DNA from: a virus
IMG/VR virus record: IMGVR_UViG_3300031566_013099
Span: 1 to 31,583 of that record
Reading direction: 5' to 3' (one strand)
DNA length: 31,583 nt
Made by a program: the position numbers and the translations under genes
In this document: piece after piece, positions 18,848 through 31,234 of the stretch
Layout of the letters: the number at the start of each line of letters is the position of its first letter
How positions within the stretch are numbered: the first letter of the stretch is position 1
The notes under the pieces: generated by a model
Databases searched by the model: none
Seen by the model: only the letters and a program-made list of their open reading frames with translations
What the model was told of the DNA's origin: nothing

Positions 18848-19156
18848 TTATATCTCCAGGGCAGTGTCTGTCTGGGTCCGCTCGGCAATCTCCTTGCCGG
18901 AGGCGGTCAGCAAAACAGCCTTTTGCCTGAATTCGGCCTCCCCGACAATTTTTTCATTTACAAAGTCGAGCCAGCCCTTGCGGCGAAAGTACATAATATC
19001 CTTCTCGAATAGGGTGAAATCGTAAGTAGGGTAAATGTAAGTCATGTTGTCGTAAATCATTCCCAGCAGCAGAGGGGCCGGATCCATCATATTCAAAAAG
19101 GATAAAATCCTCCGGCGAACGAGTTTTATTTTTGCAACTTCCTTGTCTATTCCCAT
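18848..19156 (-). CDS. Mu gp26-region winged-helix-like small protein
   Basis: 102 residues from the ATG at 19156 (AAGGA 6 nt upstream), rather than the TTG two codons earlier. It has a helical start (AKIKLVRRRILSFLNMMDPA), then FTLFEKDIMYFRRKGWLDFV and KAVLLTASGKEIAE, a winged-helix-like pattern ending in a phage 'LT..G.e.A.' strand. Comparable proteins sit just before gp27/terminase in Mu-like phages. The molecular role is unknown; a packaging or regulatory DNA-binding part is possible. Confidence 0.6.
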   Translation of the reverse strand: MGIDKEVAKIKLVRRRILSFLNMMDPAPLLLGMIYDNMTYIYPTYDFTLFEKDIMYFRRKGWLDFVNEKIVGEAEFRQKAVLLTASGKEIAERTQTDTALEI

Positions 19157-19158
19157 AA

Positions 19159-19530
19159 TCAATCCTTATTATTGAGCAGCGAAACCATTTCCTTTACCGT
19201 GTTGGAGGCTATCTGGCCGGCAATCTGCGGAAGCTGCGAGATTATCTCGAACTTACCGCCCAATTCCTTAACGGCCTCGACAACATCGTCGAGACGTCTT
19301 CGCGTATAGCCGGCCTCCCTTAAAAAGTGACCGACACCGACGAACTCCCGCTGACAGTTCTGCTTGCGGGCGGAAAGCAGCTTGGCATCGGCCTCGATCC
19401 GGCCGATGCGGCGCTCCTGCTCATCGAGACGCTTCGATAACATTCGCAGATTATAGAGCACGAGCATACCGATAATTGTCGCCGAGGCGCTTAAAACGAT
19501 ACTTAAAACCTGCATGGCCGGTGACATCAT
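19159..19530 (-). CDS. Membrane-anchored coiled-coil phage protein (DUF2730-like)
   Basis: 123 residues. A single N-terminal transmembrane helix (VLSIVLSASATIIGMLVLYN, about 8-27) is followed by a coiled coil (LSKRLDEQERRIGRIEADAK) and a helical C-terminus. This shape and position, shortly before gp26/gp27-like genes, fits DUF2730-type proteins of Mu relatives. They are sometimes suspected of a lysis (spanin-like) function. Two adjacent ATG codons are possible; the second is better spaced from the GGAG upstream. It overlaps the preceding stop (TAATG). Confidence 0.6.
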   Translation of the reverse strand: MMSPAMQVLSIVLSASATIIGMLVLYNLRMLSKRLDEQERRIGRIEADAKLLSARKQNCQREFVGVGHFLREAGYTRRRLDDVVEAVKELGGKFEIISQLPQIAGQIASNTVKEMVSLLNNKD

Positions 19531-19865
19531 TACTCCTGTACCTCAAAAAAATGACATACCAGATAGCCGACCATATAAGCAAGATAGGCCTTCGGACCCA
19601 AAAAAATCCAGACGACAACGAAGGCGGCGATGATAATGACGTTGTCAACCTTCTTCTCGCACAATCCACGAATCCAGACGGTTATAGTGCCGTATTTTTG
19701 GCGGATAAGATACAAATCGAGAATACCCACAATGATAAAGACAATAATCGCCGGCCAGGTCAAAGACTTAAGCCACAATACAGCGCCGAGGACAGCCAAG
19801 GCGGCGCCGAGACGCTTTAAGAATTTGGGGCTCTTTGACAACTCGATGACTTTTGAAAAATCTAT
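19530..19865 (-). CDS. Multi-span membrane protein, apparent AUA start
   Basis: 111 residues if begun at ATA 19865, giving an N-terminus (M)DFSKVIELSKSPKFLKRLG. The next standard start is a TTG at 19841, which has no Shine-Dalgarno. AAGGAGG lies exactly 7 nt before the ATA. Three hydrophobic segments (about 24-36, 38-54 and 78-104) suggest a small holin-like or other integral membrane protein. It lies between the lipoprotein and the coiled-coil membrane protein, a probable lysis or membrane cassette. The start choice is an inference from spacing. Confidence 0.55.
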   Translation of the reverse strand: MDFSKVIELSKSPKFLKRLGAALAVLGAVLWLKSLTWPAIIVFIIVGILDLYLIRQKYGTITVWIRGLCEKKVDNVIIIAAFVVVWIFLGPKAYLAYMVGYLVCHFFEVQE

Positions 19866-19867
19866 TT

Positions 19868-20368
19868 TCAGGCCTCCTTAATTTTTTTAACTTCCTGTTT
19901 TGTCGCCCTGCTCTGAATGGCATTGGCGGTTTGTTTGAACTCTTCGGTCTTGTAAGGCTCAATGGAAAAGACAAGCTCTTTAATGCAGTTCAGCTTTTCT
20001 CTGAAGATATAAAGCAGTAGTATTACGGCGGCTATAATGCAGAGATAGGAGAGCAAGTCGCCGGCGGTAATTAGGAACTTGATAAAGAAACAGCCCAAGG
20101 CGCAAAAGACGGGAATGCCCAGCAGCCGCCCTTCACGGAAATACCACGCAGCCGCCCCGCCGATAACGCCAATCAAGACAAGCAGGCCGAACTGCTTGTT
20201 GGATTCAAATAAAACGTAAGTCCACTGCTTCGCCTTGGTGCTCATACCATCGATAATATTGTCGGGGACGGGAGAGACAGGCTTCTTCTGCGGAGCTGCA
20301 GCACAGCCCGTTAAAGATAATAAAACAGCGAGAAGTAAAATTCCGTTTAAGAGCTTTTTACAATCCAT
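19868..20368 (-). CDS. Phage lipoprotein with C-terminal membrane helices
   Basis: 166 residues. There is a clear lipoprotein signal: a KK start, a hydrophobic run GILLLAVLLSLTG, and the lipobox LTGC with Cys at 22. Then follow a Pro-rich linker, three hydrophobic segments (about 60-78, 83-100, 105-124), and a charged C-terminal tail. A lipobox followed by membrane spans is unusual; lysis proteins of the Rz1 class have the lipobox but not the later helices. It is first in the membrane-protein block and lies downstream of the strong promoter at 20559-20586. Confidence 0.6.
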   Translation of the reverse strand: MDCKKLLNGILLLAVLLSLTGCAAAPQKKPVSPVPDNIIDGMSTKAKQWTYVLFESNKQFGLLVLIGVIGGAAAWYFREGRLLGIPVFCALGCFFIKFLITAGDLLSYLCIIAAVILLLYIFREKLNCIKELVFSIEPYKTEEFKQTANAIQSRATKQEVKKIKEA

Positions 20369-20382
20369 TTACGCATCCCTGC

Positions 20383-20443
20383 ATTATTCGTGTTTCGTGA
20401 TTCGTAAATCGTGTTTCGTCAACAACGAACAACGAACTAATTC
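20383..20443. repeat. 7-bp arrays in both orientations
   Basis: About 20386-20420 reads ACGAAAC/ACGAATC on the minus strand, whereas 20421-20440 reads AACAACGAACAACGAAC on the plus strand. It is the only array in the window that switches orientation. Confidence 0.8.
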
Positions 20444-20454
20444 GGGGCGGGTTT

Positions 20455-20492
20455 AAAAAAAACGCCCGCCGGTTGCTCATCAACCGGCCAGC
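20455..20492 (-). terminator. Rho-independent terminator
   Basis: On the minus strand an 8-bp perfect stem GCCGGTTG/CAACCGGC with loop ATGAG is extended by CGCT/GGCG below one mismatch. It is followed immediately by eight T residues (20462-20455). This is the clearest intrinsic terminator in the window. It lies about 65 nt after the TATAAT box of the upstream minus-strand promoter. Confidence 0.85.
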
Positions 20493-20552
20493 GTGGATGG
20501 CTGATATTATTACTAACCCCAGGCGGCTTTTGTGCATCTGCCCGCCGCCTCC
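20455..20552 (-). ncRNA. Putative small RNA A (or attenuated late leader)
   Basis: A strong promoter and a strong terminator on the same strand define a transcript of about 98 nt with no convincing gene. From 5' to 3' it holds a GGAGG start, a hairpin AGGCGGC/GCCGCCT (20521-20550), a single-stranded AT-rich linker, and the terminator. A 43-bp part (20484-20526) is 36/43 identical to 21790-21832. An ORF beginning ATG at 20535 could be drawn, but it reads through the terminator and a 7-bp array. Alternatively this is the leader of the 20368 operon, with termination relieved by an antiterminator. Confidence 0.6.
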
Positions 20553-20558
20553 TATGCT

Positions 20559-20586
20559 ATTATAGTATTCGGCAAAGCGCCGTCAA
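20559..20586 (-). promoter_or_regulatory. Strong sigma70-type promoter for RNA A
   Basis: Minus strand TTGACG (20586-20581), a 16-bp spacer, and TATAAT (20564-20559). Transcription should begin near 20552. It lies just after the stop of the zinc-ribbon gene at 20597. Confidence 0.75.
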
Positions 20587-20596
20587 GGGCTAAGAT

Positions 20597-20974
20597 TTAT
20601 TTTTTTGGCAAATTTTGAGATATTTTCCTGAGAAGCAGGAAAATACCTCTCAAAGAATCAACGATCTCCGCAAGTCCCACCAAAAGAAAGCCGCCACCTA
20701 CACCCACTATGAACACAATAACAGACTCAGAAGCCACCGCAGCAAAAAGAGAGATTATTATTGCCAAAAAAGCCAATATGTTTAACATTGTACTGGAAGG
20801 TGGAGCTAAAAATTCAGATTCATCTCGCTTGATTTTCGGGGGACGGTCTATAATAATCGGCTTGTATTCGGCTGCAATGAAGCCTTTCTGGCATTTGAGG
20901 CATTTTATTTCTTTGTGGGCATAATGCTCGGGGACATCCTGGACGGCCTTGCAATTCGGGCATTGGGTCTTCAT
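20597..20974 (-). CDS. Zinc-ribbon membrane protein
   Basis: 125 residues. The N-terminus has CPNC and CLKC pairs (residues 5-8 and 24-27) forming a zinc ribbon with the pattern CPNCKAVQDVPEHYAHKEIK. Two membrane helices follow (about 62-80 and 84-106) and then a basic tail. Proteins of this make-up are common in planctomycete-like genomes and may have been acquired from the host. It begins 3 bp after the stop of the gene at 20978, so the two form an operon. Function is unknown. Confidence 0.6.
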   Translation of the reverse strand: MKTQCPNCKAVQDVPEHYAHKEIKCLKCQKGFIAAEYKPIIIDRPPKIKRDESEFLAPPSSTMLNILAFLAIIISLFAAVASESVIVFIVGVGGGFLLVGLAEIVDSLRGIFLLLRKISQNLPKK

Positions 20975-20977
20975 TTA

Positions 20978-21361
20978 TTAGCCTCTTTTGGCCTTTTTCA
21001 CCTTCTTTTTGGGTATTTGAGGCTCTATGGCCCTGCGAAAATCATCGAGGATTTGCTGCTCATCGAGCGTTAAGACCCGATAAATAGTGCCGGGCTGGGC
21101 CGTTTCGACCTCGGTCATCTCTTTTATCATCTTCATAGCATTATGTAAAGTTTTTTTTTCTGAAGATTCGGATTTGGATGTGGGCAGCGCATTGGCCTCA
21201 GCCAAACACTCTTCGCGTTGCTCCGGTGAAAGGTGTTTCAATGCCATTATTCCAGTAGAAATTGCCATCCTCAAACTACCGTATTTCTGCTGCCATTCTT
21301 TTACTGTAATTTGAGCCGCTTCGGTTAAAACCCTCTTACTGGTTGTTGTATTCTTAGCCAT
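20978..21361 (-). CDS. Leftward early protein, possible regulator
   Basis: 127 residues, hydrophilic and helical, with a very basic C-terminus (PQIPKKKVKKAKRG). The section TVKEWQQKYGSLRMAISTGI and the later LDEQQILDDFRRAI may be DNA-contacting helices, but no helix-turn-helix is certain. It is the first leftward gene, transcribed divergently from the RHH-like gene across 158 bp that hold the early promoter and operator. Divergent early pairs in temperate phages often encode the repressor, so this is the best repressor candidate by position only. Confidence 0.5.
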   Translation of the reverse strand: MAKNTTTSKRVLTEAAQITVKEWQQKYGSLRMAISTGIMALKHLSPEQREECLAEANALPTSKSESSEKKTLHNAMKMIKEMTEVETAQPGTIYRVLTLDEQQILDDFRRAIEPQIPKKKVKKAKRG

Positions 21362-21456
21362 ATTTACAATTTTACAAAAATTTTTTTACTTTACAAGTTT
21401 ATATACAATAAATACTTATGTGAAGAATAGAGAAAATGTGTGTAATTAGGTGTATT

Positions 21457-21491
21457 TTGGTGTTGACTTTCACCAACCGTGCCGACATAAT
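21457..21491 (+). promoter_or_regulatory. Early rightward promoter with operator
   Basis: TTGACT (21463-21468), 17 bp, CATAAT (21486-21491). A perfect 6-bp inverted repeat TTGGTG/CACCAA (21457-21462 and 21471-21476) encloses the -35 box. A second GGTGT at 21449 lies 10 bp, one helical turn, from that at 21459. A repressor bound here would block the early operon. The first ATG is at 21520, preceded by AAGGA. Confidence 0.7.
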
Positions 21492-21519
21492 TTAATAAGG
21501 CAAGAAAGGAATTTAAACT

Positions 21520-21810
21520 ATGGCGATAGGCCAACACGTTTATACAGGCAAAATCGAAGGATTGGTGCTCAATGCCTTTCAACTTTATTGCTCCAAAAGA
21601 GGTATTCAGACAAGCGGCGAAGGCATCCGTACCCTAATTCGTGATACATCCGAATACAAGGCTCTGTACGAGACTTTTATAGATGCACAGGATAACAACC
21701 AGGATGAAGAAAGTCAAGAAAATTCTTGCCCAGATAGCGAAAATTACCCAGATTCACAAGTTGCCGAACAGACTGAAAATGCCAATCAGCCGGCCAACGT
21801 GGCCGGTTGA
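21520..21810 (+). CDS. Small RHH-like early protein
   Basis: 96 residues. Residues 8-50 (YTGKIEGLVLNAFQLYCSKR, GIQTSGEGIRTLIRDTSEYK) read as strand-helix-helix, like ribbon-helix-helix DNA-binding proteins. The rest is acidic and low in complexity. AAGGA lies 9 nt before the ATG. As first gene behind the regulated promoter it could be a Cro/Ner-like early regulator. Its last six codons (PANVAG) overlap the shared 43-bp element and the terminal hairpin of putative small RNA B on the other strand, so that RNA is antisense to its 3' end. Confidence 0.55.
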   Translation: MAIGQHVYTGKIEGLVLNAFQLYCSKRGIQTSGEGIRTLIRDTSEYKALYETFIDAQDNNQDEESQENSCPDSENYPDSQVAEQTENANQPANVAG

Positions 21811-21910
21811 TATTATTATTAACACCGGGCGGGCCCTGCCCGGCCCGCCCGGAATGAAAACAGGCCGGCAGCAGCCGGAAACGATAAAAACTGAATATTC
21901 CTCCGTGAAG
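21775..21910 (-). ncRNA. Putative small RNA B, antisense to RHH-gene 3' end
   Basis: A minus-strand transcript from the consensus promoter at 21917-21944 would run about 135 nt. It contains an 11-bp perfect stem (21825-21835 with 21842-21852), the linker GTTAATAATAATATCAACC, and a terminal hairpin CCGGCC/GGCCGG (21790-21806) followed by a short T-rich tail (ATTTTC), a weaker terminator than that of RNA A. Its layout and 43-bp homology match RNA A. It overlaps the last codons of the plus-strand RHH-like gene and ends inside that gene. Confidence 0.5.
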
Positions 21911-21916
21911 ATAGGC

Positions 21917-21944
21917 ATTATAGGACAATGAGGCAGAATGTCAA
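21917..21944 (-). promoter_or_regulatory. Perfect-consensus sigma70 promoter for RNA B
   Basis: Minus strand TTGACA (21944-21939), 16 bp, TATAAT (21922-21917). Both hexamers are exact. It lies across the start codon of the plus-strand endolysin (21928), so firing leftward may interfere with early rightward transcription. Confidence 0.75.
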
Positions 21945-22473
21945 GAGAATTTTGGTTGTTATAGCCATAATTTTTTCCCTAAAGATACCTGCAGGCGGGC
22001 CTCACGTCACCTGCCTGCAGGGCGAAAATAATGCCGCAGTCGGGTTTTTTCCTTTGTCAAATTTATCATCACCCTCCTCCGAAAAGGTGAAGGTAGGCCG
22101 CCCTGCACCCCCCCTGCGGGGCGGCCGGCCGCCTGACTGGCTGGATGAGCTGATTGAGAAAATCTGGCTCAAGGAATCATCCGGCAGACTAAAGCCGCCG
22201 GACGGGGACGGCGGGGCGGCCGTTGGGCCGCTGCAGATCCACAAAAAAGCAATCGATGATGTCAATAAATTCTACGGGACGAAATATACGCTCGATGATG
22301 TCCGTCAAATCGCCCCGGCAAAAGAAGTGGCCAGGCTGTATGTAACGCTCTGGCTCGAGAAGCATAAAGAAGAGATTGCAGCGAGGATTTACAACGGTGG
22401 GCCGCGAGGATGGAGAAAAAAGTCAACGGATGAGTACTGGGAAGATGTGAAGAAATTGATGATTGATTACTGA
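21928..22473 (+). CDS. Endolysin / lytic transglycosylase-like protein with signal-anchor
   Basis: 181 residues. A basic, hydrophobic N-terminus (VKRILVVIAIIFSLKI, about 5-20) acts as signal or anchor. After a Pro/Gly-rich linker the catalytic domain carries WLKESSGRL with likely catalytic Glu83, AAVGPLQIHKKAIDDVN (97-113), and ARIYNGGPRGW (152-162), as in lysozyme and transglycosylase folds that cleave peptidoglycan. The linker (21-70) is encoded by two GC-rich inverted repeats. A signal-anchor fits the membrane-protein cassette on the opposite arm. It is unusual to find the lysin in the early-strand block. Confidence 0.7.
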   Translation: MRQNVKRILVVIAIIFSLKIPAGGPHVTCLQGENNAAVGFFPLSNLSSPSSEKVKVGRPAPPLRGGRPPDWLDELIEKIWLKESSGRLKPPDGDGGAAVGPLQIHKKAIDDVNKFYGTKYTLDDVRQIAPAKEVARLYVTLWLEKHKEEIAARIYNGGPRGWRKKSTDEYWEDVKKLMIDY

Positions 22474-22498
22474 TGATTGATTATTGGAATGAAAAAAA

Positions 22499-22714
22499 AT
22501 GATTGAGTGCATCGAGCAGAAAGGCGGGATGAATAAATACAACTTCGTATGCGAGGCGTGCGGAGATGAGTACGAATTGAAGGTTTCCAATGATGTAACC
22601 GACATTGGGTGCGACAGATGCGGGACGAGATACTTCCAGCATAACGATGAAAACGGCAAGCCGGTACTCGTTTTTACAGGGCACGTATTAAATACACAAG
22701 GGCAAGGCCAGTAG
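22499..22714 (+). CDS. Small zinc-ribbon protein
   Basis: 71 residues with two CxxC pairs (CEACGDEYEL and CDRCGTRYFQ, about 20 residues apart), forming a typical zinc ribbon. The ATG at 22499 or the one at 22529 (MNKYNFVCEACG) may be used. It lies between the endolysin and the structured leader of the next gene. A nucleic-acid-binding role is likely for this fold, but no partner is evident. Confidence 0.55.
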   Translation: MIECIEQKGGMNKYNFVCEACGDEYELKVSNDVTDIGCDRCGTRYFQHNDENGKPVLVFTGHVLNTQGQGQ

Positions 22715-22948
22715 TGAATAGAATTAGAAAGATTGGTTTTTCGTACAGCCCCAGCCGGCGGTGGGTAATAACACCGGCCAGACATAGTTGATCTCCTGAC
22801 CTTCGGTGGGTTATAAAGGTTAAACCCACCAGAATTGAAAAGTGAATTATGAGATACGACAAACCCCCGAGAAGGGCAGAAGCGGGGGACAGGGAGCTAA
22901 TTCCAAACCCCGCTTTTGCCCAAGGCTAAAAAAAGAAGGAGTTTAAAA
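22715..22948 (+). promoter_or_regulatory. Structured leader with competing hairpins
   Basis: This 234-bp gene-free stretch folds repeatedly. GGTGGGTT/AACCCACC pairs at 22805-22830. CCCCC (22864-22868) can pair with GGGGG (22884-22888). GGGCAGAAGCGGGG (22874-22887) can pair over 14 positions, one mismatched, with 22908-22921. The last two stems share the G-run and cannot coexist. A strong AAGGAG and the next start codon follow. Near 22759-22779 CGGTGGGTAATAACACCGG echoes part of the 43-bp element. The design suggests control of the downstream transposition genes. Confidence 0.45.
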
Positions 22949-23209
22949 ATGATACGATTAGGTCAGCAGGTTAGAGACAAGGTCAGCGGCTTTACCGGCA
23001 TTGCGACTGCAAAAGTGGAGTACTTGAATGGCTGCGTGCAATATTGCGTAAAGCCCAAAATCAAAACAAAGAACGACAATACAATGCCGGAAGGACAGTA
23101 CATTGACGAAGGACAGCTTGAGATAATCAGTAAAGGACTTCGTACGAAAAAGACCGGTACTGGCGGCCCAATGAGCGATGTTCCAAGCACTCGTTATGTC
23201 GCAAATTGA
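22949..23209 (+). CDS. Small SH3-like phage protein, unknown function
   Basis: 86 residues from the ATG at 22949, chosen over 22916 because AAGGAG lies 7 nt upstream. The core MIRLGQQVRDKVSGFTGIAT, then VEYLNGCVQYCVKPKI and IDEGQLEII, looks like a small beta-barrel (SH3/KOW-like) of a type often seen in phages. No function is known to me. It lies upstream of the zinc-binding and transposase genes in the early operon. Confidence 0.6.
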   Translation: MIRLGQQVRDKVSGFTGIATAKVEYLNGCVQYCVKPKIKTKNDNTMPEGQYIDEGQLEIISKGLRTKKTGTGGPMSDVPSTRYVAN

Positions 23210-23211
23210 GC

Positions 23212-23293
23212 TACGAACTATAAACAACGAACTTCGAACGCCGAGTATCGAGTATCGAGTAACGAGTATCGAGAATCGAGAATCGAGGGACGA
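23212..23293 (+). repeat. 7-bp array on the early arm
   Basis: ACGAAC-type units come first, then CGAGTAT/CGAGTAA/CGAGAAT units leading to the ATG at 23296. The orientation follows the plus-strand transcript, mirroring the minus arm. Confidence 0.9.
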
Positions 23294-23295
23294 TT

Positions 23296-23751
23296 ATGGT
23301 TGCATACACAGAAAAAGAAATAAAAGTTACAGGGGTGGTATGCCCGAGGTGTATTGAGCAGCTGAGCGGCTATTCGATAATTACCGAAGGGCCGGACCGG
23401 TACGGAAGGTATATTCGAGAATATTTCGGCTGGTGCATACACTGCGATACGGGGTTCGAGGTTGTACAATTCAAAAAGGACGGCCGCTGGCCTATACATA
23501 AATACAGATACTACGCGGCAAAAGCGGGATGCAAAAAGATACCGCCCTCAGAATGGACAATCTTAAACGAGCTGCCGGAGCCGCCGGCGGTAGTTACGGG
23601 GCCGGGCGGCGATTACGATAAGGCAATCGAGCTTACTAAAATCAATATAGAGATACTTACCGCAGCCAGCAAAGTGAGCAAGGCGGTTGCCGATGCCTTC
23701 GGTGAGTTTGTCGATGTGATAAAAAAATACATAAAGACAGACGAAAAATGA
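23296..23751 (+). CDS. Zinc-binding early protein
   Basis: 151 residues. CPRC (16-19) and CIHC (47-50) form a probable zinc site in a beta-rich N-terminal half. The C-terminal half is helical (DKAIELTKINIEILTAASKV). Its TGA overlaps the transposase start (ATGA at 23748), so the two are translationally coupled. It may act as a small accessory factor in transposition or replication, by position only. No Shine-Dalgarno is seen; an ATCGAG array precedes the ATG. Confidence 0.6.
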   Translation: MVAYTEKEIKVTGVVCPRCIEQLSGYSIITEGPDRYGRYIREYFGWCIHCDTGFEVVQFKKDGRWPIHKYRYYAAKAGCKKIPPSEWTILNELPEPPAVVTGPGGDYDKAIELTKINIEILTAASKVSKAVADAFGEFVDVIKKYIKTDEK

Positions 23752-25673
23752 ATAGATACGTCGATGCAAAAACAGCAGGAAAGTTAAGGGGGGTAACCCC
23801 TCAGTGGATTCGAATAATGTGTGCTAAGGGGCGTTTACCCGGAGCCATTAAGAAAAACGGCAAGTGGTGGATACCGATTACAGCACATCCCGACCTGGCG
23901 GAGGCGGAAGCGAAGAATTTCGATGCGGATGATTTCGCTCAGATTGCGAAACACAAAAAAGACGATGCGGTCGAAAGGCTCGGCGTTATAAACGAATTTG
24001 AAAAATTCGCAGCGGAGAATTCGAAAAACTGCAAAAACAGAAACAAGTTGCTGAATTTGTTCACGGCAGCACACAATATTAAAAAACGAACGCTTCAGAG
24101 ATGGCTCGCCCGATACAGACACCGGGGGCTGCTCGGCCTGGTAGATACTAGGGGCAGGACAAACGGGAAAGATGCTATAAGTCCGGAGGCATTCGAGCTG
24201 TTCAAGTCGATGTACCTTACCCAGCAGAAACTATCGGTGAAGACGTGCCTGCAAAACGTCTGCTTTGTCAATAAGAGCCAAGACGAAGGCTGGCGGCTGC
24301 CAAGCCTCGACTTTATGTATAAATATATAAACAGGCAAATCCCGGCGCCCGTGCAGGTGCTGCACCGCGAGGGACTGGCCGCTTACCAGGCGAAATACGC
24401 ACCTTACATTCAGAGCGAGCCCGACAGCGTGCAGCCGGGACAGTTATGGGTAGGAGACCATCATCAGTTTAACTGCTGGATTCGGCACAGAGGAAAATGG
24501 GTCCGCCCCTGGCTCACCGCATGGGAGGATTACAGGAGCAGGACCATAACAGGATTCCATATATCAACATCGCCGAACCAGACGACAATCCTTCGGGCTA
24601 TGAAAAAAGCGATTGAAAGTTACGGTCCGCCCGATGCGGTCAAGATAGACAACGGAAGAGATTACGACTCGCAGATGTGGACGGGGACTACGAAAGCAAA
24701 AAGAAGGGCGCTTCGCAAGGGATATATAGATGAATTTATGGTGACGGGAATTTATGCAATGCTCGATGTGACGGTGTCGTTCGCACTGCCTCATCGTCCT
24801 CAGTCCAAGTCGATCGAGAGATGGTTCGATACATTGGACTGCCAGTTTACAAAGACTATTGCCACCTACTGTGGGAAAGATTCCGAACGAAAGCCGGATT
24901 ACCTAAAAGACCTTCTGCAAAGCGAAAAGGCGAACGCCGCCGCATACGACATCGACAGCTTCGCAGAATTAGTCGGCGAGTACGTAAAGGTCTATAACAA
25001 CTCGGCACACAGCGGGGCGGGAATGGATAAAAGGGCGCCGCTCGAGGTGTTAGGCCAAAGACGCTCGCGCAGGGTCCTGATTGAAGGGGTTATCGAGCTG
25101 CTGCTGCGGGCGTGGAGCGGGGAAATATCAGTCGGCAAAAACGGTGTGCGATTCAAAAATATGCATTACGGCCAGTTCAATCCGTACCTATTGGCCTACC
25201 AGGGTAAAAAAGTCAGGGTCGCTTTTGACCCTGACAACTTAGCCGTTGTCGATGTCTATGATACGGTGACGCTAAAACTTGTAACACGGGCCGAGCAGAA
25301 CGAACTTGTGCGATACGGCCCAGGCGTGTCGGATGAGGCGTACAGAGAAGCGACCCGGCAAAAGGCAAACGCACTTAAAATCGCACGGGCATATAAAAAT
25401 TCACGGCTTACCGCAAATATGGATATCGCATCGCTCAGTATCAGGGCGGCGGCATCGCAAATCGACAATCGCAAATCGAGAATCGAAAATCAAGCCACGC
25501 TGCGGCCGGTAAAGACGCCGTTCGATACGCAGGTGGCAGAGCACAAGAGACAGGACGTTGTACGCGCCGTCAAAAAGGCGGCCGGTGCCGAATCGACGAG
25601 GACCGTGCTGGATATGGACTTTTCAGCGCTTAACCCGAACAAGCAGACAAGGAGAAAAATATTCGATGAATGA
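23748..25673 (+). CDS. MuA-like DDE transposase
   Basis: 641 residues, close to MuA (663). It cuts and joins phage ends to target DNA for integration and replicative transposition. An N-terminal MerR/excisionase-like helix-turn-helix (AKTAGKLRGVTPQWIRIMCA, 7-26) is followed by a second DNA-binding region (about 80-190). The RNase H core has D237 (WVGDHHQ), D301 (KIDNGRDYDS) and E357 (SKSIERWFD). The D301-E357 gap of 56 equals that of MuA D336-E392. A beta-barrel domain follows, then a MuB-contacting tail. A 7-bp array insert encodes QIDNRKSRIENQ at 571-582. Confidence 0.93.
   Translation: MNRYVDAKTAGKLRGVTPQWIRIMCAKGRLPGAIKKNGKWWIPITAHPDLAEAEAKNFDADDFAQIAKHKKDDAVERLGVINEFEKFAAENSKNCKNRNKLLNLFTAAHNIKKRTLQRWLARYRHRGLLGLVDTRGRTNGKDAISPEAFELFKSMYLTQQKLSVKTCLQNVCFVNKSQDEGWRLPSLDFMYKYINRQIPAPVQVLHREGLAAYQAKYAPYIQSEPDSVQPGQLWVGDHHQFNCWIRHRGKWVRPWLTAWEDYRSRTITGFHISTSPNQTTILRAMKKAIESYGPPDAVKIDNGRDYDSQMWTGTTKAKRRALRKGYIDEFMVTGIYAMLDVTVSFALPHRPQSKSIERWFDTLDCQFTKTIATYCGKDSERKPDYLKDLLQSEKANAAAYDIDSFAELVGEYVKVYNNSAHSGAGMDKRAPLEVLGQRRSRRVLIEGVIELLLRAWSGEISVGKNGVRFKNMHYGQFNPYLLAYQGKKVRVAFDPDNLAVVDVYDTVTLKLVTRAEQNELVRYGPGVSDEAYREATRQKANALKIARAYKNSRLTANMDIASLSIRAAASQIDNRKSRIENQATLRPVKTPFDTQVAEHKRQDVVRAVKKAAGAESTRTVLDMDFSALNPNKQTRRKIFDE
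25458..25496 (+). repeat. 7-bp array inside the transposase gene
   Basis: CGACAAT/CGCAAAT/CGAGAAT/CGAAAAT units, in frame, encode a seven-residue periodic segment (I572, I579). It lies between the beta-barrel domain and the C-terminal tail. Confidence 0.85.
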
Positions 25674-29926: not shown

Positions 29927-31234
29927 ATGGCAGCAACATCGCCGGGCTGGAAAAAATTAGCATTGTATATGAAGCTGAACGATAACGCTGCGTCCCCTGT
30001 CGTTATCAATGAGGTCGGCGACAACGGTGAGTTGCACGGCGGCGAAGAGAATAGTTATACTTCGGAAATTGCCTGTGCAAGCGGCAATCCACCGTATCTT
30101 AACGGTGCTTTTTATTTTGAGCCGGAAGGGAACTATTATATTGTCGTCCCCGACAGTGCAGCCCTGTCAATTACAGGCGACTTAACCATTGCCTTCACGA
30201 TGAAACGGAATGGTGATAATTCCCATGAAAGCTTGATATGCAAGGGTATAACAGATGGTCAGCGAAGCTATTCTGTATCTTCAATGGATAGTGGACGATT
30301 GTTGTTTTATATCACGCCCAATGGAACACAGGCGAGCCGACAGTATTGTATAACCGGCGATGTACTGGCTGATAGCAGTTGGCAGCGAATAGTAGTTACT
30401 TATGATGCCGATGGTGCTGGCGGTAATGGGCTAGTAAAATGTTATATCGATGGAGTTGAAAAGACATTTACGCCGAGCGGCACAATTCCGAGTTCAATCC
30501 ACGATTCTACAGAGGATTTATATATAGCAAAAGGACTAAACGACTATTTGGCAGGTAAGCTCGATAATATAATCATAGATGCCAAGGTCTGGATGCAGGA
30601 AAATGTTAATTGGGATTGGAACGACGGCAATTGCCGGGAACTGGGACATTATCACAGGGTCTATCGCGGCCAGGACGGCATAATGGACTACGACAACGTC
30701 CAGGCCGTGATGGACATCGATGATTCGCAGGTACAGGTAAACGGCCAGGAGCTGCCGGCAAATACGATATGGCATTACATCCGCCGACAGGTAAGCGGCT
30801 GCGGCTTAGAGAGCGAGGATTCGCCCACCCTCATAATAACAATCGATGAAAACGGGGACATGGTGGGCAGCACGCCGAATCCGCCGGATGACTTAACACT
30901 CGAAAAATTGGCCGGGGCGAAATTTAAGCTACAATGGCGATATACGCCGACAGGCGAAGAGATTGAGCCGACAGGATTCAGGGTCTATATAGATTCGGGA
31001 GATGGATTCAACTTCGAGAGCCCTGCCGATACGGTCCCTTACATGCTGGGGCGCAACGGCGAGTTTAACTGGACTTCGGATGAATTAGTTGATGGCCAGA
31101 TGTATCGTTTTTGCGTTCGCAGCTATCGCGAAGCAGCCGGCGAATCCCAGAACACCAATTACGTTGCTGACTTTGCAGATTCACAGGGGCCTGATGCGAT
31201 TACAGGATTGCGGATAAGCTATCAGGAGGCTTGA
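29927..31234 (+). CDS. LamG-like / Fn3-like virion adhesin
   Basis: 435 residues. Residues 1-220 form a LamG/concanavalin-like jelly roll (ALYMKLNDNAASPVVINEVG; FYFEPEGNYYIVVPDSAALS; WQRIVVTYDADGAGGNGLVK; LAGKLDNIIIDAKVW), a fold that commonly binds glycans. A middle linker follows, then an Fn3-like domain at about 325-435 (PNPPDDLTLEKLAGAKFKLQ, FRVYIDSGDG, YRFCVRSYREAAGESQNTNY). This is a receptor-binding or adhesin design. It follows the fibre-type gene by 3 bp. The ligand is not predictable. Confidence 0.65.
   Translation: MAATSPGWKKLALYMKLNDNAASPVVINEVGDNGELHGGEENSYTSEIACASGNPPYLNGAFYFEPEGNYYIVVPDSAALSITGDLTIAFTMKRNGDNSHESLICKGITDGQRSYSVSSMDSGRLLFYITPNGTQASRQYCITGDVLADSSWQRIVVTYDADGAGGNGLVKCYIDGVEKTFTPSGTIPSSIHDSTEDLYIAKGLNDYLAGKLDNIIIDAKVWMQENVNWDWNDGNCRELGHYHRVYRGQDGIMDYDNVQAVMDIDDSQVQVNGQELPANTIWHYIRRQVSGCGLESEDSPTLIITIDENGDMVGSTPNPPDDLTLEKLAGAKFKLQWRYTPTGEEIEPTGFRVYIDSGDGFNFESPADTVPYMLGRNGEFNWTSDELVDGQMYRFCVRSYREAAGESQNTNYVADFADSQGPDAITGLRISYQEA

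Follow-up and report, generated by a model that had tools for sequence, protein, structure and literature searches.

The 31,583-base IMG/VR record analyzed here in full (the window) encodes the gene set of a Mu-like phage, and two of its loci, termed units A and B, have in common an 18-nt word (word 2) that varies between phages and is kept within each. The word usually covers the 5′ arm and loop of an intrinsic terminator in unit A, and recurs in unit B at the end of the first early gene. The original prediction had raised the possibility that, by way of the B complement, RNA A pairs with the early mRNA, and the matching of A and B within each of 19 phages strongly supports it; the predicted pairing can thus be regarded as well supported. 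We propose that unit A serves the late operon as its 5′ leader and as an RNA-controlled attenuator, antiterminated by the early mRNA, a reading to which we give about an even chance on the sequence evidence.

The phage and the two units

The structural genes lie on the minus strand from approximately 20368 leftwards, and the early genes on the plus strand from 21520. The window encodes a transposase (23748–25673; Mu DDE_2 and Mu-transpos_C domains), an AAA ATPase at the position of MuB, GemA, Gam, portal, Mu F and Gp27. No DNA similarity between the window and annotated phages was found, and the transposase had distant relatives among annotated phages (23–29% for the best listed). As the relatives of the transposase include MAG contigs labelled Planctomycetota, Phycisphaerae or Phycisphaerales, the host of the window phage probably belongs to this group (Planctomycetota/Phycisphaerae). 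Loci of like layout (designated by L numbers) were collected by transposase scans, and five more by an independent MuB scan; the nearest neighbor ORF used as an anchor recovered no relatives. The full comparison comprised 19 Mu-like (pro)phages, of which the host MAGs are Planctomycetota/Phycisphaerae. In L017, the transposase and MuB-like genes were found twice, approximately 9 kb apart, like two tandem elements. The early-strand end of the window bears an ORF with a Laminin_G_3 domain and a weak fn3 (29927–31234), unusual for an early Mu-like region.

The features of unit A and its surroundings are the following:
19868–20368, minus: first late ORF, 166 aa, lipoprotein-like, with a weak Rz-like spanin match (E = 0.0033)
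20455–20488, minus: intrinsic terminator of A, GCCGGTTGATGAGCAACCGGC-GGGCG-TTTTTTTT, ending in eight T residues; at the same place in relatives
20476–20493, minus: CGCTGGCCGGTTGATGAG, the A copy of word 2, spanning the terminator's 5′ arm and loop
20502–20517, minus: AT-rich linker GTTAGTAATAATATCA, common to A and B
20522–20549, minus: predicted hairpin 1 of A, GGCGGC...GCCGCC; equivalent in most relatives
20538–20543, minus: GGGCAG, the A copy of word 1, within the hairpin 1 loop; a weak case in the window
20559–20586, minus: PA, putative promoter of the late leader, TTGACG-16-TATAAT, with GCCGAA within the spacer
20978–21361, minus: divergent ORF, 127 aa, repressor-like by position only, with no family match

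PA and PB, the two minus-strand promoters originally claimed at 20586–20559 and 21944–21917, are both near consensus (11/12 and 12/12, respectively) and are the top two promoter-like sites within 19000–24000. Each is followed by a GC stem, an AT-rich linker and a hairpin, as had been described. The reported identity between 20484–20526 and 21790–21832 (36 of 43 positions) was reproduced, and a repeat search widened the match to 53 nt at 81%. Within the window, the core sequence was found at A and B only. Exact core matches in other viral contigs fell in AT-rich sequence without the context of a unit and look like chance.

Unit A ends in the stem and T8 that the original prediction had noted. 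Wherever an A unit is present, it forms a leader with a terminator at its end, usually 40–90 nt before the first late ORF, and the position of the terminator is kept across relatives while its sequence is not. A promoter-like site starting with TTGA lies 77–126 nt upstream of the terminator in approximately 11 of 15 phages. No consensus-like promoter was seen between the terminator and the first late ORF in the window or its relatives. An intrinsic terminator in the 5′ leader of the operon to be controlled, here at 20455–20488 ahead of the ORF starting at 20368, is the arrangement of an attenuator. The competing view in the original prediction, a late promoter with an attenuating leader, gains support from the same arrangement, and the two views are compatible, A being the attenuator and the early mRNA its antisense partner.

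ORF 20358–20537 spans unit A. As neither its start nor its frame is conserved in those relatives that were inspected (e.g., L014), it is probably non-coding. Unit B overlaps the last codons and the stop of the plus-strand ORF 21520–21810, to the end of which it is antisense, as had been claimed. Eight of 15 phages have GCCGA in the PA spacer, several of them in the form GCCGATA, which hints at an operator or activator site overlapping the promoter. A run of repeated ACGAATCACGAAACACGAAT-like text lies at 20380–20440, past the A terminator and ahead of the first late ORF. Many first late ORFs of the relatives look like lipoproteins, and in L012 (6655–6867), L026 (5370–5627) and L044 (6194–6415), on the minus strand, the first late ORF is a small RLxLxL...IRL protein. 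We rejected the identity of some relatives' first late gene as CsrA, for which there was a sub-threshold match in L044 alone (E = 0.037).

The features of unit B and the early region are the following:
21463–21491, plus: candidate early promoter, TTGACT-17-CATAAT
21520–21810, plus: first early ORF, 96 aa, with no Pfam, NCBIfam or PHROG match
21782–21799, plus: word 2 complement carried by the early mRNA; CGTTGGCCGGCTGATTGG when read on the minus strand
21785–21811, plus: B hairpin 3, terminator-like, followed by ATTATTATTA on the plus strand, with the stop codon of the early ORF in the 3′ arm
21825–21852, minus: B hairpin 2, a covarying GC stem with word 1 (GGGCAG, 21836–21841) in the loop
21899–21907, minus: CACGGAGGA motif at the 5′ end of putative RNA B; same or nearly the same in L012, L014, L023 and L045
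21917–21944, minus: PB, putative promoter, TTGACA-16-TATAAT, upstream of B and overlapping the start of plus ORF 21928

The small early ORF corresponding to that of the window stops within hairpin 3 in all 12 phages examined. The structure predicted for the first early protein, of moderate confidence (pLDDT 70, pTM 0.39), had no significant fold match, NikR and MatP being at the top with E above 1. The stems of B covary, with 86.7% of the cells paired and 24 two-sided changes, a result reached by none of 500 shuffles and far above the slid versions. The wobble counts for the acting strand of B point in opposite ways for hairpins 2 and 3. Since the T-rich tract at B is on the plus strand and no T-run follows the last B hairpin on the minus strand, B looks like a terminator for the early gene, and a minus-strand RNA would not end there. 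PB is recognizable in approximately 8 of 15 phages, 123–153 nt from the word. It was not recognized in L026, L031, L044 and L052 and is doubtful in L019, and the A–B words persist in all of them. Hence, the idea that B is a second small RNA of the same plan was not borne out: PB is recognizable in only about half of the phages, no minus-strand terminator is found and the pairing needs the plus strand only. Just past the PB start, CACGGAGGA has no obvious ORF start after it and resembles a Shine-Dalgarno or CsrA/RsmA-type site. The plus ORF just past B (21928–22473) has a signal-like N-terminal segment, no family match and a homologue in L012.

Words shared by A and B within each phage

When the A terminator was used as the query, the best 18-mer match up to the transposase was B hairpin 3 in 11 of 11 phages, the position of B not being supplied beforehand, and 14–18 of the 18 positions matched within a phage. 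In the alignment of the words of these 11 phages, the own pairs agreed at 172 of 209 positions against a between-phage mean of 9.2 of 19 (0 of 200,000 permutations as good), even with the own score lowered by L045 standing in the wrong register. At the nine positions outside the common CTGAG part, 6.8 agreed in the own pairs and 2.8 in the others. For the 19 phages, the own match was 16.2 of 18 against 9.1 for other phages, again with 0 of 200,000 permutations as good, and the own partner was the best in 18 of 19 rows.

A same-strand scan for word pairs, which used no B or promoter anchors, added L051, L052 and L031, and L023 was recovered starting from its B word. A preset blind rule found the A–B pair in 5 of 5 unseen loci from the MuB scan, which amount to four phages, L063 and L064 being approximately 98% alike. 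The rule alone is unspecific, as a pair of 15–16 of 18 was also found in 14 of 38 distant Mu-like phages when counted without regard to context, and it missed L014, L044 and L031.

A comparison of close relatives was provided by L066, L068 and L078, in which the surroundings of A and B are nearly identical and the loops differ. A reads GAGTT-AAAC-CA, GAGTT-GATT-CA and GAGTT-GTAT-CA in L066, L068 and L078, respectively, and B reads GAGCT-AAAC-CC, GAGTT-GATT-CC and GAGTT-GTAT-CC. The loop has changed identically in A and B across the three close relatives, with the flanks kept. Between L066 and L068, 45 positions differ in a 1.8-kb block, and 17 of them are inside 57 nt around the A terminator.

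In most phages, a second common word (word 1) fills the loop at the apex of both A hairpin 1 and B hairpin 2, with the stems differing; it is exact over 7–9 nt in 9–10 relatives. Within a phage, the two loops agree, for example, on the following:
L012: GTCCTTACC
L014: GTCTTCAGC
L023: GTCTGTAGC
L026: GCCGGCAGC
L044: GTTTCCGGC
L047: GTCCTTAGC
L063: GTCTCCCGC

With the hairpins chosen automatically, the mean longest common substring of the loops was 6.0 for own and 3.0 for other pairs (0 of 200,000). Plainer tests gave 8 of 100,000 with 9-mers and 974 of 100,000 with 11-mers. The window has only a short word 1 (GGGCAG), and in L031, L045, L066, L068 and L078 the word is weak or absent.

Proposed pairing of the late leader with the early mRNA

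As both words are common to A and B, RNA A is predicted to be complementary to the early mRNA at two places. Read on the minus strand, word 2 takes the 5′ arm and loop in A but the 3′ arm and 3′ flank in B, a placement coherent only as pairing of the A minus strand with the B plus strand. The loop of A would meet the single-stranded stretch before hairpin 3, and the 5′ arm of A that of hairpin 3. Consistently, the differences between A and B lean to changes that keep a wobble pair between these two strands (14 vs. 5, p = 0.03), though marginally. The binding energies, computed with kissing loops ignored, were for nascent A (5′ arm and loop) a mean of −16.3 kcal/mol with the phage's own early mRNA and −6.0 with those of other phages. 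The completed terminator binds at −8.0 (own) and −3.5 (other), and at approximately −2 to −4 in several phages. We rejected pairing between the minus strands of A and B, as own pairs were no better than others (−55.8 vs. −56.8). Altogether, a candidate trans RNA complementary to the leader was found, with the own-specific covariation expected if A is an attenuator.

The anatomy of A, its position and its own-specific complementarity in two words can be read directly in the genomes; for the direction and effect of the pairing, we infer the following. Transcripts from PA would form hairpin 1 and then the intrinsic terminator, leaving the late genes off. Once the divergent early operon is on, the plus strand of B, which is the 3′ end of the operon's first gene, would expose the complements, that of the hairpin 1 loop in the loop of early mRNA hairpin 2 and that of the terminator 5′ arm and loop around hairpin 3. 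Hairpin 1 would emerge first and may kiss the early mRNA; its place ahead of the terminator suits a recruiting site. The 5′ arm of the terminator would then be captured ahead of its 3′ partner, so that no terminator forms and the polymerase proceeds into the late genes. Both RNAs would have to be made and to pair in the cell, the outcome presumably being antitermination and not decay or repression. The strong binding of nascent A and the weak binding of the completed terminator fit the need of such a mechanism to be co-transcriptional. In the early mRNA, hairpin 2 follows hairpin 3 and could not help disrupt the latter co-transcriptionally. No Mor/C (PF08765) was found over the cut-off in 15 records, weak evidence given that these are partial contigs, and one sub-threshold match was present in a host genome. 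The leader terminator, with no late promoter seen after it and no Mor/C over the cut-off, makes trans antitermination the best reading. Nevertheless, word 2 leaves the lower part of the terminator stem free in several phages, in which a GC base of 5–6 bp could still form, and in L031 and L052 the word is displaced to the linker and the lower part of the 5′ arm. The five relatives with a missing or weak word 1 and its shortness in the window also count against antitermination, and a phage-specific late activator may operate.

The main rival builds on the same two-word complementarity and takes A to be an immunity antisense RNA, that is, a terminated RNA of approximately 100 nt made constantly from PA in the lysogen, which shuts the early operon. 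Its two loops would pair with the early mRNA, own or of an incoming relative, where the first early gene ends, and the shut-down would come via RNase III cleavage, a translation block or termination, as with c4 and P4 immunity RNA. A two-hairpin RNA with words in its loops and a terminal T8 suits such a role, and the clustering of L066–L068 differences at the A terminator is as for a specificity determinant. On the other hand, this reading leaves unexplained a terminator in a late leader for which no other promoter was seen. The pairing would also break the early mRNA's own terminator-like hairpin, favoring early expression, and the completed A hairpins bind weakly in several phages (kissing ignored). 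We consider immunity unlikely but retain it because the words diverge quickly, which would also fit specificity of immunity. The role of an active regulator might instead fall to RNA B, made on the minus strand from PB, as an OOP- or PRE-like cis-antisense to the early gene that could also compete with A for the early mRNA or read into the divergent minus ORF. The near-consensus PB at a fixed distance in approximately half of the phages and the CACGGAGGA-type motif kept in five phages speak for it, but the words persist where PB is not recognized and no minus-strand terminator lies past B. Action of RNA B as a cis-antisense or competitor is possible, not required by the pairing, and as an account of the system it seems improbable to us.

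Two further readings dispense with RNA pairing. The common words could be phage-specific DNA sites, either repressor operators or recombination sites, that overlap the hairpins by chance; operators likewise vary between phages and agree within one, and A and B are direct repeats on either side of a small cassette. Conserved copies of word 2 were found at A and B only in the fetched loci, with none near the early promoter or elsewhere, and we thus rejected a multi-copy operator or stoperator. Moreover, word 1 sits in the loops of hairpins of which the stems differ between A and B, word 2 is in the 5′ arm in one unit and the 3′ arm in the other, and the stems covary. For these reasons we find DNA sites very improbable. 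A duplication kept by gene conversion, without a pairing function, would agree with the similarity of A and B over 53 nt in the window, which suggests a fairly recent copy. In the relatives, however, identity is mostly confined to the words and ends at structural borders, and in L066 and L068 the A flanks are homologous and the loop alone tracks B. We give this explanation hardly any credence.

Known RNA systems and significance

STARs (small transcription activating RNAs) are synthetic RNAs that pair in trans with the 5′ side of intrinsic terminators and so permit read-through. They are engineered, whereas A and the early mRNA would be a natural case at an intrinsic terminator. The passages considered from a review on small RNAs and termination describe natural sRNA antitermination for Rho-dependent sites only (PMC6582626). 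In pT181, formation of the leader terminator depends on a trans RNA, and loop-loop kissing comes first and spreading follows (PMC4878617). Unit A is similar in being a leader with an intrinsic terminator and a proposed trans RNA partner. The pT181 antisense, however, promotes the termination that the early mRNA would prevent, and it is encoded opposite its own leader, a layout not found here, the partner being the divergent early mRNA on the plus strand 1.3 kb away.

P4 immunity RNA is a phage antisense RNA with complementary words likely borne in loops and with phage-specific pairing. The c4 RNA shares these traits, its pairing being specific to each phage and its complementary words probably exposed in loops (PMC12197685); its target is the ant mRNA, close to the ribosome-binding site. 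The likeness to P4 and c4 drawn in the original prediction is an apt analogy, as phage-specific complementary words are in loops here as well (word 1 in apical loops, word 2 in the loop and arm of the terminator), but no Rfam family was found at the gathering score in the window. In contrast to c4 of P1 and P7, a late leader is here matched to the 3′ end of an early gene, and the phages are Mu-like ones of another phylum. Lambda OOP and aQ and P22 sar are antisense RNAs that act on the overlapping mRNA (PMC12197685). PB and B resemble them as a minus-strand promoter just beyond an early gene and antisense to its end. To our knowledge, none of the three has a second, trans copy in a late leader. 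HK022 put RNA comes as two structured leader RNAs, related to each other and located near phage promoters, with a link to antitermination; it works on polymerase in cis and, unlike A, has no complementarity to another mRNA. No publication on the A/B system was found in an open-access library, which is no proof of its absence.

Proteins (Q, Mor/C, Ogr) activate the late genes in most well-studied temperate phages. Across at least 19 phages, the late leader and the end of the early mRNA have stayed complementary in two loops despite repeated turnover of the sequence, and the co-variation of A and the early message points to direct RNA–RNA control of the early-to-late switch or of immunity. We tentatively suggest, with somewhat less than even confidence, a natural RNA-only early-to-late switch, in which the end of the first early mRNA would antiterminate the late operon in trans and the diversifying loop words would stop a superinfecting relative from triggering the late genes of the prophage. 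If the pairing controls the late terminator, it would be the natural counterpart of STARs and could readily supply orthogonal RNA regulator pairs; in the case of immunity control, RNA immunity of the c4/P4 type would extend to phages of Planctomycetes.
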